From Vibrio sinaloensis DSM 21326 (lineage in GTDB: Bacteria > Pseudomonadota > Gammaproteobacteria > Enterobacterales > Vibrionaceae), in contig NZ_AEVT01000031.1 in the NCBI RefSeq assembly GCF_000189275.1, forward strand, positions 1 through 64,000: a stretch of DNA of 64,000 bases, in the 5' to 3' direction. Each line of letters opens with the position of its first letter. The stretch's first letter is position 1. The notes beneath the pieces are model-generated. The model saw nothing but the letters and a program-made list of their open reading frames with translations. It ran no database searches and was not told the origin of the DNA. The position numbers and the translations under genes are program-made. This document shows, piece after piece, positions 12,418 to 18,321 of this stretch.

Positions 12418-13149
12418 TTATTGCATCAATCCTTGCCAAACTGCTGTTGCACCACTGACAGTACACAGCAGTAATGCCCCAGTGCGGATTTTCTCTTTCG
12501 GCAAAGAATGGGTCGTCAGTTGTGCCAGTTTATAGCCCAACCAAGACGCTGGGATAAGAGGAATCGAAATCCACACGTGGTGCCAAGTGAAGAACCCCGC
12601 AGGGATTTGAATAATCAATGAGATGATGGAGCTAAAAACGAAAAACGCAGACAAATTCCCGCGCAATTGATTGGCTTCTTGATGCTGTAAAAGCAAAGCC
12701 ATCGGTGGTCCCCCGATAGCAGAGCTGGTGCCAAAGAAGCCAGAGAAAAACCCCGCGACACCCATGCGAGTGGGCGTAGGTTCAATACGAAATGGCAATA
12801 GGCTCACGGCAACAGCAAACAACACCAAAAGCCCAAGCCACAACGCCAGCAGCTCAGTCGAGACCATCACCAATAATACGCCACCAGCAATGGACCCTGG
12901 TACGCGTCCAATTAGCGCCATTTTCAATCCACCGATTTCGACACTCGCACGGTGCTTCAAGGCATTTAGAATCGAGATAAACAGCGCAACCAAACAGATT
13001 GGAGCCGGAACATAGTCTGGAGAAACAAGAATTAGCAAAGGCGCTGCCACAATGGCAAGCCCAAAGCCAATGGCAGTTTGAACGAACGAACCGAGGAAAA
13101 TTAAAAATGCCGCAATCAATGCTGGTTGCGTGACCCATTCAGCAAACAT
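12418..13149 (-). CDS. TauE/SafE-family membrane permease
   Basis: About 243 residues, eight predicted membrane helices, from the sulfite exporter TauE/SafE family of anion permeases. The family pattern is FLGSFVQTAIGFGLAIVAAP in the first half and a similar GFFSGFFGTSSAIGGPPMALL in the second. The frame extends to a TTG at 13170, but the ATG at 13149 is the first conventional start; neither has a strong Shine-Dalgarno sequence. Substrate is unknown; family members move sulfite, sulfoacetate, taurine or other organic sulfonates. Confidence 0.85.
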   Translation of the reverse strand: MFAEWVTQPALIAAFLIFLGSFVQTAIGFGLAIVAAPLLILVSPDYVPAPICLVALFISILNALKHRASVEIGGLKMALIGRVPGSIAGGVLLVMVSTELLALWLGLLVLFAVAVSLLPFRIEPTPTRMGVAGFFSGFFGTSSAIGGPPMALLLQHQEANQLRGNLSAFFVFSSIISLIIQIPAGFFTWHHVWISIPLIPASWLGYKLAQLTTHSLPKEKIRTGALLLCTVSGATAVWQGLMQ

Positions 13150-13259
13150 ATCGTTAATATCTAGTAACAAACAGAACCGTCATCATAATCTAACGCGATG
13201 AAATTGCGACCGATTATCGCGCTAAACCGACAAATATTTCCCGCTTGAGAAAACCAGGC

Positions 13260-14609: not shown

Positions 14610-15821
14610 CTAAGCTAACGCGACACGGCGAATAGGCTTGTCATTAATAGGTAAGTGAATCAATGCGGCTGCAAATGCCAAGACCACCGTTGACCACCAA
14701 ATTGGTTCGTATGACCCGTAGTAATCATAGATTCTCCCCCCTACCCAAGCGCCTAAAAAGCTGCCGACTTGGTGAGTGAAAAAGACTAAGCCGTACAAGG
14801 TCGATAGGTACTTAGCACCGAATATTTGTCTGACAAGTCCGGAGGTTAATGGCACGGTACCCAACCAGCAAAAGCCAATTGCCCCACCAAAAATTGCAGC
14901 GGTGTGTTCGGTCACAGGTAAGGTGACGAACGCACCGATAACGATCGTACGCACAATGTAGAGCGCCGACATCACATGACGTTTGCTGAACTTATCGCCC
15001 ATCACGCCCCAAAAATAAGAGCCAAAAATATTGAAAACACCCACATAAGCCAGTGCCATCGCCGCTGTTGAGGCTGGCAGCTGTTTATCGGCTAAGTAAC
15101 TTGGTAGGTGAGTCGCAATAAACATGACGTGAAAGCCACAAACGAAAAAGCCCATGTGGATTAGCCAGTAACCTTTGTGTGAAAAGGCCTCTTTCAGCGC
15201 TTGTTGTAATGTCTGGTGCTCATCGCTCGCTGAGGCACTTTGCGATGCTTGCGATGGCTTCGCCCCTTTCATAAACAAAGCAAACGCAATCATGGTACTG
15301 CACAAAATGGCAAATCCTTGTAGAGCGCCTTGCCAGCCAAAATCACTCAGCATTGCCTGAGCACCCGGAATCATAGCGAACATGCCAAAAGATCCAGCGG
15401 CCGTGGTTAAACCAAACGTTTTTGCGGTATGTTCTGCTGGAACAACTTTAGCTACGGCACCCAAAACTATCACGTAGCTGGTCGCACTCAAGCCAAGGCC
15501 AACCAACACACCGAGAGAGAGGTATAGAACACTCGGTTCAACCGCAATCGATGTTAAGTACAAACCTAAACCATAGGCAATCGCACCCAGTATAATGATT
15601 CGCTTAGCACCGAAACGATCCGCCGCCATACCAACAAACGGCTGGAAAACACCAAATAGCAGATTTTGCAGTGCAATAGCGAAGCTAAAGAACTCACGGC
15701 CAGTTTGGAAATGGTCCGAAATCGGCATCATAAAAATACCGAAAGATTGTCTAATACCAAGACACGTGATCAGGATGGCAATACCTAGCCAAACCATTAA
15801 AGGGAAACGGAAAATACTCAT
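14610..15821 (-). CDS. Major facilitator superfamily transporter
   Basis: 403 residues, 12 predicted membrane helices, MFS fold with GMAADRFGAKRI between helices 2 and 3 and GVMGDKFSKRHVM in the second half. The overall pattern resembles the monocarboxylate/oxalate-formate antiporter group (early GIRQSFGIFMMPISDHFQ). The start is tightly coupled to the small His-tailed ORF upstream: that ORF ends 9 bp before this ATG, and its TAA stop forms part of the TAAGG Shine-Dalgarno sequence. Substrate unknown; the coupled His-rich protein raises the possibility of a metal or metal-chelate substrate. Confidence 0.88.
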   Translation of the reverse strand: MSIFRFPLMVWLGIAILITCLGIRQSFGIFMMPISDHFQTGREFFSFAIALQNLLFGVFQPFVGMAADRFGAKRIIILGAIAYGLGLYLTSIAVEPSVLYLSLGVLVGLGLSATSYVIVLGAVAKVVPAEHTAKTFGLTTAAGSFGMFAMIPGAQAMLSDFGWQGALQGFAILCSTMIAFALFMKGAKPSQASQSASASDEHQTLQQALKEAFSHKGYWLIHMGFFVCGFHVMFIATHLPSYLADKQLPASTAAMALAYVGVFNIFGSYFWGVMGDKFSKRHVMSALYIVRTIVIGAFVTLPVTEHTAAIFGGAIGFCWLGTVPLTSGLVRQIFGAKYLSTLYGLVFFTHQVGSFLGAWVGGRIYDYYGSYEPIWWSTVVLAFAAALIHLPINDKPIRRVALA

Positions 15822-15830
15822 GTTTTTGCC

Positions 15831-16010
15831 TTAGTGATGATGGTGGTGAGAGTGTTCGATGCCATCGGCAGATTGCTGATGACAGCCGCTATTGATCGCT
15901 TGCTGCGCCAACACTTCAAGCAATCGCGGAGAGTGATGAACGGCAAACAACGTGACCACCAGCAACAGGGTCATTCTCACAAGCTGAGCAAAAAGTGATT
16001 GAGAAAACAT
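15831..16010 (-). CDS. Small membrane protein with polyhistidine C terminus
   Basis: Predicted 59-residue protein from the ATG at 16010, with TGAGG about 8 bases upstream; an in-frame ATG at 16091 would add 27 residues without support. It has one hydrophobic segment (about 9-25, LVRMTLLLVVTLFAV), then HH, a CH pair and a C terminus of EHSHHHHH. The first part could be a signal anchor. The His-rich tail suggests metal binding, which is inference. Coupled to the downstream MFS gene. I do not recognise the family; the reality of the ORF rests on its Shine-Dalgarno sequence, membrane segment and coupling. Confidence 0.6.
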   Translation of the reverse strand: MFSQSLFAQLVRMTLLLVVTLFAVHHSPRLLEVLAQQAINSGCHQQSADGIEHSHHHHH

Positions 16011-16137
16011 GGTTTGTGCCTCAGCGTAGTCAATAAAAAGAGCGCGAAGTTTAGTGACTTCAATCACATGACTCAAATGACATTTGAGCAAGTAAGCTAT
16101 GCGAAAAATGCATAGTCATCAGCAATGGAGAAAGCGA

Positions 16138-16674
16138 GTGCTAGAGAAGGAAACCACAGGACTTATCGTCATCGATATCCAAGGCAAGTTGGCGCGTGTT
16201 GTCGACGACAGTGAAGGCATGATCAGTCAGTGTGAAAAACTGATTCAAGGCTGTCAGGTCTTAGGTCTGCCAGTGTTATGGCTAGAGCAAAACCCGCAAC
16301 GACTAGGGAGCACGGTCGAAGAACTGCGAACACTGCAAACACAACCCGTCTTTGAAAAGTTCACCTTTGACGGCTGCAAAGACGCCCATTTTGCTCAGGC
16401 ACTTGCTCAATCTGGCATTCAACACTGGTTGGTGTGTGGCATCGAAACTCATATCTGCGTCTACCAAACTGTTCAAAGCCTCATTGCCCTCGGTTATCAA
16501 GCTCATGTGGTCAGCGATTGCGTCTCATCTCGCAGTAAAGAAAGTAAGGCCTTAGCACTTAACAAGATGACTCAGTTAGGTGCCAAAACCACTAACGTAG
16601 AAATGTGTTTGTATGAAATTCTGCAAGATTGCCGCGCGCCAGAGTTCAAATCCATTCTTCAATTGATTAAGTAA
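16138..16674 (+). CDS. Isochorismatase-fold cysteine hydrolase
   Basis: 178 residues of the isochorismatase/nicotinamidase superfamily. The catalytic triad is visible as Asp13 (VIDIQGKL), Lys74 (FEKFTFDG) and Cys107 (ETHICVYQ). Closest in style to the YcaC-like group of hydrolases with unknown substrate. An ATG at 16099 is in frame but would add 13 basic residues; the GTG at 16138 is preceded by GGAGAAA and places the protein start right before the first strand, so I prefer it. Divergent from the His-tailed ORF/MFS pair. Confidence 0.87.
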   Translation: MLEKETTGLIVIDIQGKLARVVDDSEGMISQCEKLIQGCQVLGLPVLWLEQNPQRLGSTVEELRTLQTQPVFEKFTFDGCKDAHFAQALAQSGIQHWLVCGIETHICVYQTVQSLIALGYQAHVVSDCVSSRSKESKALALNKMTQLGAKTTNVEMCLYEILQDCRAPEFKSILQLIK

Positions 16675-16704
16675 ATTGGCTTTAAAATTGATTGTCGTCA
16701 AACG

Positions 16705-16744
16705 TACATCGTTTATACCCTTTAGTGCGATGTAAATTAGACAT
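16705..16744. repeat. Inverted repeat upstream of norR
   Basis: TACATCG at 16705-16711 and CGATGTA at 16738-16744, 26 bp apart. It sits in the 114-bp region between the isochorismatase gene and norR and could be an operator or a weak structure; nothing in it matches a site I know. Confidence 0.3.
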
Positions 16745-16788
16745 CAGCTTGCTAGGATGCGCTCACATTCAAACGCATCCTAAAGCTT

Positions 16789-18321
16789 ATGACCGCCAAT
16801 ATGAACAAAGTGCTGCTCGATATTGCACTCAACCTCAGTTCCAACCTCAACAGCGAAAGTCAGTATCAGCACCTGATCGACGGCATTGATCAAGTATTTC
16901 CCTGCGATGCCAGCGCTTTATTTGTCTTTGATGAAGATGGGTTTCTTGTTCCTGTGGCGGCAAAAGGTTTATCCAGCAGTGTGCTTGGACGGCGCTTCTT
17001 CCCGGCCGCACACCCACGCCTTGAAGCCATTATGCATAGCAAGCAACCGGTTCGCTTTGATGCCAACTGTGAGCTGCCAGACCCATTCAGCGGCGTATTG
17101 CTCAGTGAGCAAGTAGAGCTAGATGTTCACGACTGCTTAGGGTGCAGCCTCCACGTTGGTGGTCAGTTGGTGGGTCTACTGACACTCGACTCGCTCACCG
17201 TTGGCGCGTTCGATCGCATTGAACCTGTCACCATAGAAACCTTTGCCGCTCTCGCAGCCGCAACTTTGCGTAATATTGGCCAACTTAAAGCTCTGAAAGC
17301 TCAGAACAAAAAACAAAAGCATGTCACCGAAACCTTGATCCAGCAAGCTCGCTCAAAAGAGGGCGAAATGGTCGGTTTAAGTGAACAGATGCAGCAACTG
17401 CGAAACAACATCGCGACGGTAGCAAAATCAGACTATGCCGTTTTAATCACCGGAGAAACTGGCGCTGGTAAAGAGCTGGTCGCTCACAGCGTTCACGCCC
17501 AGTCGCACCGTAGTACCAAACCCATGATTTATGTAAACTGCGCCGCTCTGCCGGAAGGCCTTGCGGAGAGCGAGCTGTTTGGTCACGTTAAAGGGGCATT
17601 TACCGGAGCAAACAGTTCAAGGGCGGGGAAATTTGAACTTGCCGACGGCGGGACCATCTTTCTAGATGAGCTGGGAGAGTTGCCCTTGGTGCTACAAGCT
17701 AAATTACTGCGCGTGATTCAACAAGGCGAACTACAGCGAGTTGGCAGTGATAAGCACTTGCTGGTCAATGTTCGTATCATCGCAGCGACCAACCGCCAAT
17801 TAGAGAAAGAAGTCGAACAAGGGCTGTTTCGTGCCGATCTCTATCACCGCCTCAATGTGTTCCCAATTGCCGTCCCTCCACTCAGAGCGCGCAGCGGCGA
17901 CATCCCCGTTCTTGCTGGCTACTTGCTAGAAAAGGTACGCAGCCAATTCAATATCCCTAACCTACATTTACATCCAAAGGCCCTAACCCAATTGGAAAGC
18001 CAATCTTGGCCGGGTAATGTTCGCGAACTGGAGCACACCCTAACCCGCGCAGCGTTACGCGCCATTCAAGAGCAGCAAACCATCATTGGCCGTCAGCACT
18101 TCGAATCGACCTCAGCAAAGACGGAAGTGAAGTTCAGCAGCAAGTACTTTCCACAGCAGAGCACGGGAATGCGTTCATTGGTCGAAGACTACCAACGTGA
18201 TTTGATTCAACACGCACTTGGTCAATCAAATGGTACCTGGTCCCAAGCGGCTGAATTTCTGCAACTTGATCGCGGAAACCTGTATCGAATGGGTAAAAAG
18301 CTTGGGGTCAGTCCAGAGTAG
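16789..18321 (+). CDS. norR: NorR, nitric-oxide-sensing sigma-54 activator
   Basis: 510 residues in three parts: N-terminal GAF domain (about 20-170) that in NorR holds a non-heme iron sensing NO, an AAA+ sigma-54 interaction domain (about 200-420) with Walker A GETGAGKE, the sigma-54 loop GAFTGA, Walker [11 protein letters not shown], and a C-terminal Fis-type helix-turn-helix ([20 protein letters not shown]). In Vibrio cholerae NorR controls NO detoxification genes. No norVW or hmp lies next to it here, but hcp at 33166 has a sigma-54 promoter with GT-N7-AC sites, a plausible target. An alternative ATG lies four codons in. Confidence 0.92.

Follow-up and report, generated by a model that had tools for sequence, protein, structure and literature searches.

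Passages of three papers (PMC2409183, PMC7996999, PMC6573034) describe basigin and embigin as single-TM ancillary proteins of the mammalian monocarboxylate carriers MCT1–4, and those of the first two report that the outer Ig-I domain of basigin harvests protons and anions for MCT1. For the regulation of acrylate genes, the parts of PMC13104084 concerned with Halomonas D47 describe control of acuI by AcuR (TetR) and AcuZ (LysR) and discuss LysR-type T-N11-A boxes. AcrZ (with AcrB) and CydX are described as small single-helix membrane proteins whose targets are a large transporter or another complex of the membrane.

Here we analyse a locus of Vibrio sinaloensis DSM 21326 in which a gene for a small His-tailed protein directly precedes the gene of a major facilitator superfamily (MFS) carrier. 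It lies in a 64,000-nt stretch (contig NZ_AEVT01000031.1, positions 1 to 64,000), which we call the window. The reading we favour, held with about even confidence, is a bicistronic transport unit, LysR-regulated together with acuI. Its carrier would move acrylate or some similar acid, and the small protein would serve that carrier as a dedicated accessory with one helix. Such a unit would resemble basigin and embigin in giving a monocarboxylate carrier a single-TM ancillary protein of its own. It differs in that no sequence relation was found, the small protein is 59 aa long and carries no Ig domain, and the TM8 Arg is missing from the bacterial carrier; the partnership here is a presumed one. 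Small membrane-protein modulators also include KdpF and SgrT; compared with AcrZ, the protein described here has another sequence, a presumed MFS rather than RND partner, a gene placed directly before that of the carrier, and a Cys-His motif with a His tail.

A conserved small protein gene ahead of an MFS gene

The features of the locus are listed below by window coordinates.

14610..15821, minus strand: MFS carrier, 403 aa, distant MCT/OFA-type relative (PF07690, 146 bits; NF049980, 150 bits; 6g9x, E 1.4e-17)
15829..15833, minus strand: TAAGG, the small-ORF stop (TAA, 15831-15833) overlapping the Shine-Dalgarno-like stretch of the MFS gene, read from the sequence
15831..16010, minus strand: small protein gene, 59 aa with stop; single helix, core S3-Q45, variable His tail 46-59
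16048..16053, minus strand: putative -10 TAAACT (TACACT in many relatives), from the sequence and its relatives
16071..16079, minus strand: CATTTG, overlapping the putative -35 TTGAGT and beginning 17 nt after the box
16097..16115, minus strand: predicted LysR-type box CTATGCA-N5-CGCATAG (T-N11-A), centred at about -65 of the putative start and part of an exact composite site

The translation of the ORF at 15831-16010 (minus strand) is MFSQSLFAQLVRMTLLLVVTLFAVHHSPRLLEVLAQQAINSGCHQQSADGIEHSHHHHH; its 59 residues end in HSHHHHH, as the preliminary description of this DNA had stated, and the single membrane helix named there is likewise predicted. An AlphaFold model places helices at residues 6–26 and 28–41, followed by a loose tail (mean pLDDT 73, rising to a mean of 93 over residues 11–20; pTM 0.40). 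The invariant R12 preceding the helix suggests that the protein sits N-in.

For the comparison across genomes, 180 MFS relatives were confirmed in genome contigs, the best 80 were kept and the DNA upstream of them was read. An intact small ORF precedes the MFS gene in 78 of these best 80 loci; it is 5'-truncated in L072 and absent in L110, from Marinomonas. The same order of genes, with the small ORF immediately before the gene for this carrier, occurs in Vibrio, Aliivibrio, Photobacterium, Agarivorans, Colwellia and Endozoicomonas; an Aliivibrio fischeri strain (L097) is one bearer of the pair. Conservation statistics refer to 79 sequences (the 78 intact loci and the window, with the L072 and L110 rows left out), many of them from close relatives, which makes the counts non-independent.

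The core from S3 to Q45, 43 residues long, aligns in all 79 sequences with no gap. Ten residues are invariant throughout (S3, Q4, Q9, R12, L17, A38, G42, C43, H44 and Q45), and H25 is kept in 78; a divergent copy, L190 (MFKQS..., GCHS), shows that even residues invariant in the 79 can change. The preliminary description had named poor conservation, or a synonymous pattern untypical of coding sequence, as grounds for giving up the ORF, and neither was found: core codons have a mean pS of 0.78 and a mean pN of 0.23, the all-pairs mean pN/pS is 0.29, and pN is lower than pS in 78 of 78 core comparisons with the window sequence. The short length and low-complexity tail would suit a chance or non-coding ORF within a 5' UTR, an explanation that is refuted by this codon pattern together with residues invariant across genera and has practically no probability left. 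The small ORF is a real protein gene whose core is under purifying selection. Its conserved part is the membrane helix with GCHQ, while the His tail and the coupling to the MFS gene are less conserved.

The family is new in the sense that it has no match in the libraries searched; its general kind, the single-helix transporter accessory, is known. The window protein matched no family in Pfam or NCBIfam, and among 49 members scanned against Pfam no family recurred in more than one (four stray matches to other families, in one member each). Neither the window protein nor the 49 members gave a Pfam match to CbtB-type small proteins or to DUF2946, the family of CruR, and a profile of the small protein found no solved structure in the PDB up to E 10. 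Plasmid records with a small-ORF match hold two to three annotated features in total and are uninformative on whether the ORF is annotated.

The carrier, its linkage to the small ORF and the junction between them

The carrier scores 146.3 bits against the major facilitator superfamily model PF07690, above the gathering cut-off of 33.4, and 150.4 bits against NF049980 (L-lactate MFS transporter SfMCT), below the cut-off of 320. To our knowledge, SfMCT has no small partner. Its structure, 6g9x, is the nearest solved chain (E 1.4e-17), with an oxalate:formate antiporter also among the nearest. In a gap-free alignment block read by eye, H250, D257 and N276 of SfMCT correspond to H238, D245 and N264 of the carrier, whereas the substrate arginine of TM8, R280, is replaced by Ser268; the roles of these four residues in SfMCT are described in parts of PMC6573034. 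The substrate may therefore differ from that of SfMCT. Judged by its sequence, the carrier is MCT-like and outside the SfMCT equivalog, and sequence alone does not tell what it transports. A propionate-tolerance MFS of P. putida was considered as a lead and set apart by its description in PMC7936288, where the cluster it belongs to also has membrane-fusion and outer-membrane components.

The small ORF and this carrier occur almost exclusively together. Across 196 genomes of the genus, the small ORF was matched in 98 (E ≤ 0.01) and the MFS gene was found in 98, with both genes in 97; the small ORF occurs alone in G169, where the MFS matches in part, and the MFS gene alone in G019. Within the order sample of 295 genomes, the small-ORF profile matches 29, and these same 29 have the MFS orthologue (at least 74% identity); three further MFS homologues at 44–46% identity come without a small-ORF match. 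In the class sample the profile matches two of 369 genomes, the window's own and one weak, stop-containing match, and MFS homologues, apart from that of the window's genome, reach at most 50% identity. No recognisable small ORF was seen upstream of 12 MFS homologue loci at ≤50% identity (11 from the class, one from the order). At the level of loci, the MFS orthologue is adjacent in 53 of 54 small-ORF loci, the exception being a weak, stop-containing match.

The preliminary description had taken the small protein for a metal-binding accessory peptide of the transporter. The accessory part gains circumstantial support from the near-perfect co-occurrence of the small ORF with one group of MFS orthologues and from their adjacency, and the metal-binding part fares poorly, as set out below. 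A single-TM accessory is expected to combine one predicted helix with strict genetic linkage to one transporter, and both are found here. The MFS gene does persist, with its promoter box intact, at loci that have lost the small gene or keep only a damaged copy: L110, G019, both copies in G176, and L072 with its truncated ORF. In G019 (L200) the MFS gene stands behind a decayed small ORF; G176, counted among the 97 genomes with both genes, has two MFS copies (L196, L197), each behind a decayed small ORF, and stops interrupt the ORF in both genomes. An apparent transposase gene, judged by eye, lies beside one of the G176 copies. Since the carrier is kept without an intact small gene, the small protein is not strictly required.

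That independence, the invariant Cys and a predicted regulon shared with acrylyl-CoA detoxification would also suit a free-standing stress microprotein that shares a LysR promoter with the MFS gene and acts elsewhere, for instance as an electrophile sensor through Cys43. None of the 53 verified loci stands apart from the MFS gene, however, which favours a joint function, and elsewhere there are only weak matches, in G016 and G167 (30% identity, E about 0.002). Each is a second match; the one in G016, with no MFS orthologue found in the 16 kb examined, was judged to be chance. We consider a free-standing microprotein quite unlikely.

At the junction, the small-ORF TAA begins TAAGG and the MFS ATG follows 9 nt after the stop, so the arrangement reported earlier, a stop codon inside the Shine-Dalgarno-like stretch of the MFS gene, is borne out in the window. 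It is not general: a 9-nt gap recurs in only 21 of 79 loci. Gaps are at most 16 nt in 67 loci and overlaps occur in seven, within a range of -4 to +63 nt. The gap modulo 3, which sets how the two frames stand to each other, is 0 in 48, 2 in 22 and 1 in nine. Folding of 105 nt of RNA around the MFS start, at 21 of the 79 loci, gave no structure signal (mean z 0.22).

These data bear on the second earlier proposal, a leader peptide whose translation would gate the MFS gene. Gating of this kind would work through stalling or through coupling, and CruR, CutF and MdtU would be comparable cases. In PMC9426467, CruR of Bordetella is an upstream ORF of a copper-linked operon; the likeness lies in a short ORF directly upstream of transport genes, whereas the small protein here has no Pfam match to such a family and an RNA-level gating signal was not found. 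The overlap of stop codon and Shine-Dalgarno stretch in the window and the prevalence of gaps of at most 16 nt are what gating would predict. Conservation at the protein level across the whole core is not, nor is retention of promoter and MFS gene where the small ORF is gone, and the variable gap, a tail of 0 to 34 codons, the use of all three frame relations and the unstructured junction RNA argue against such a switch. A gating leader is accordingly rather improbable, and ordinary translational coupling is possible where the genes are close.

A promoter architecture shared with acuI

The rule for LysR-type boxes is a T-N11-A dyad, and TGCA-N5-TGCA fits it. Upstream of the small ORF the box takes the general form CTATGCA-N5-TGCATAG, with a TACACT-like -10 in many loci. 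It scores at least 11 of 14 in 72 of 81 loci, with a spacer of 5 in 71 of these 72, and CATT[TGA][GA] follows at exactly +17 from the box in 67 of the 72; L110 is counted among the misses although its box is present, the stretch searched having excluded it. A dyad of this kind at a constant register upstream of a promoter is what a LysR-type site should show. The quorum-sensing box of AphA (ATATGCA-N6-TGCATAT, PMC3440409) was considered and rejected, the spacer here being 5, not 6, in 71 of 72. A 17-bp inverted repeat (CTCAAATG, one base, CATTTGAG) at window positions 16072-16088, over the putative -35, is less complete in other upstream regions.

Genome-wide counts against controls show that the palindrome alone is unspecific and that the composite site is specific. 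The palindrome occurs exactly at three places in the genome, and the two besides this promoter fall within long open frames; with one mismatch allowed, each strand has 30 sites versus 35 for the reversed control, which is no excess, and among 20 one-mismatch regions read, 15 sites lie within open frames. The composite ATGCR-N5-YGCAT-N19-CATTT, in contrast, is exact at two sites in the 4.9-Mb genome, the small-ORF/MFS promoter and the acuI promoter, compared with one site for the reversed composite in the same genome. Among the 79 small-ORF promoters it is present with no mismatch in 50, one in 17, two in ten, three in one and five in one (67 of 79 with at most one). Forty acuI upstream regions, 37 of them readable, gave 21 with no mismatch and 13 with one (34 of 37 with at most one); the remaining three have two mismatches (L279), three (L268) and five, that is, no site (L275). 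In 237 control stretches of 220 nt within MFS coding DNA the composite never had fewer than four mismatches. Across 187 genomes of the genus, a hand-counted table gives an exact composite in 130 versus 31 with the reversed control, and among the 150 composite sites listed, at least 64 are followed by an MFS orthologue within 450 nt.

The AcuI protein (L215:5233-6210) scores 468.8 bits against the acrylyl-CoA reductase model NF051456, above its cut-off of 440. From the shared promoter architecture, the small ORF–MFS unit and acuI appear to be co-regulated. A candidate regulator is encoded beside acuI: in the window's genome, a LysR orthologue (G000:C87:45230-46159, 69%) is convergent with acuI. 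Relatives of this acuI-side gene adjoin the unit itself in six loci, two from Colwellia and four from other genomes of the order, and in the Marinomonas locus L110 a relative (67% identity) adjoins the MFS gene. In the six loci where the LysR gene adjoins the unit, no box reaches a score of 11, and the assignment of the LysR protein is therefore strong in Vibrio and weaker in those loci. In 80 chosen genomes, a LysR relative (E ≤ 1e-60) is present in 40 of 40 with the MFS gene and in 33 of 40 lacking it; the match in G590 has 46% identity only, and those in G001 and G003 are partial. The LysR gene is thus wider spread than the unit and does not track it.

The likeness to Halomonas D47 lies in acuI and acrylate/3-HP genes under dedicated regulators and in the LysR-type T-N11-A boxes. 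There, acuI is controlled by AcuR, of the TetR type, whereas here a LysR-type box precedes acuI, and the second predicted target here is the small ORF with the MFS gene. E. coli acuI (yhdH) mutants are described in part of PMC4029986 as hypersensitive to acrylate, which fits the theme of a toxic acid.

The histidine tail and the proposed transport unit

Conservation of the tail, which the preliminary description had proposed as a check, does not hold up: the part after GCHQ is 0 to 34 residues long in the 79 sequences, with at least four His in 63, fewer than four in 16 and at most one in eight. In Photobacterium indicum (L107:2828-2962) the protein stops exactly at GCHQ, a natural tail-less variant. 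Where present, the richness in His is probably selected rather than a product of codon slippage, since 44 of 44 HHHH runs mix CAT and CAC codons.

A metal-binding accessory peptide, in which Cys43-His44 and the tail bind Zn, Ni, Co or Cu for the MFS carrier or to regulate it, would draw on the codon mixing and the many tails with four or more His, and on C43 and H44, invariant in all 79, with H25 in 78. It meets a tail that falls to one His or none in eight sequences, L107 among them, a predicted regulon that pairs the unit with acuI and holds no metal gene, a carrier of MCT/OFA type, and a Pfam scan of 49 small-protein members with no metal family among its matches. With a variable tail and a predicted regulon in acrylyl-CoA/monocarboxylate metabolism, metal binding as the core function is unlikely; the Cys and His residues might still bind metal.

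In the transport unit that we favour, a LysR regulator sensing acrylate or a related compound would activate acuI and the small ORF–MFS operon. One mRNA from the operon's own promoter would encode the small single-pass inner-membrane protein and then the MCT/OFA-like carrier. The small protein would insert as one helix beside the carrier, as a modulator of its assembly, stability or activity, with the polar N-terminal face (S3, Q4, Q9, R12) and the helix as the presumed contact and with GCHQ and the His-rich tail outside the helix. The carrier would move acrylate or a related short monocarboxylate, in a direction that is conjectural, and the separate acuI would supply acrylyl-CoA reductase. 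A read-through model of small protein and carrier has low confidence (pLDDT 54.6) and no interface.

A bolder version, by analogy with basigin, is a long shot: a one-helix protein of marine bacteria would dock on an MCT-type carrier, place a His-rich tail that collects protons and anions, together with a Cys-His motif, at the outer mouth of that carrier, and speed uptake or export of acrylate-like acids, with one LysR regulator governing both the unit and acrylyl-CoA reductase. That the tail might collect protons and anions as the outer domain of basigin does is speculation.

Word searches of open-licence PubMed Central returned no description of the small protein, the MFS carrier or a LysR–acuI–MFS regulon in vibrios, and no acuI-linked MFS acrylate carrier. 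Acrylate is a product of DMSP breakdown. The small-protein family is tied to one carrier, and the predicted regulon that joins the two to acuI is tiny; this predicted link to acrylyl-CoA metabolism was unexpected. If the favoured reading is true, single-helix partners of monocarboxylate carriers could be studied in a tractable bacterial system, and vibrios would have a candidate acrylate transporter.

As for the surroundings, no gene besides the small ORF and the MFS gene approaches presence at all of the best 80 MFS loci. The most frequent other neighbour, downstream of the MFS gene on the same strand in 27 of the 80, is a TauE/SafE-family permease (window 12418-13170). An ArsR-like regulator gene lies up to about 2.4 kb upstream of the MFS gene in 12 of the 80; in L193 and L194 such a gene immediately precedes the unit. 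It is often near a permease that looks ArsP-like by eye. In the window, a divergent isochorismatase-family gene and a NorR-like-looking GAF/sigma-54 activator gene (16097-18321) start beside the putative operator, inside which the isochorismatase frame has its first ATG (16099).
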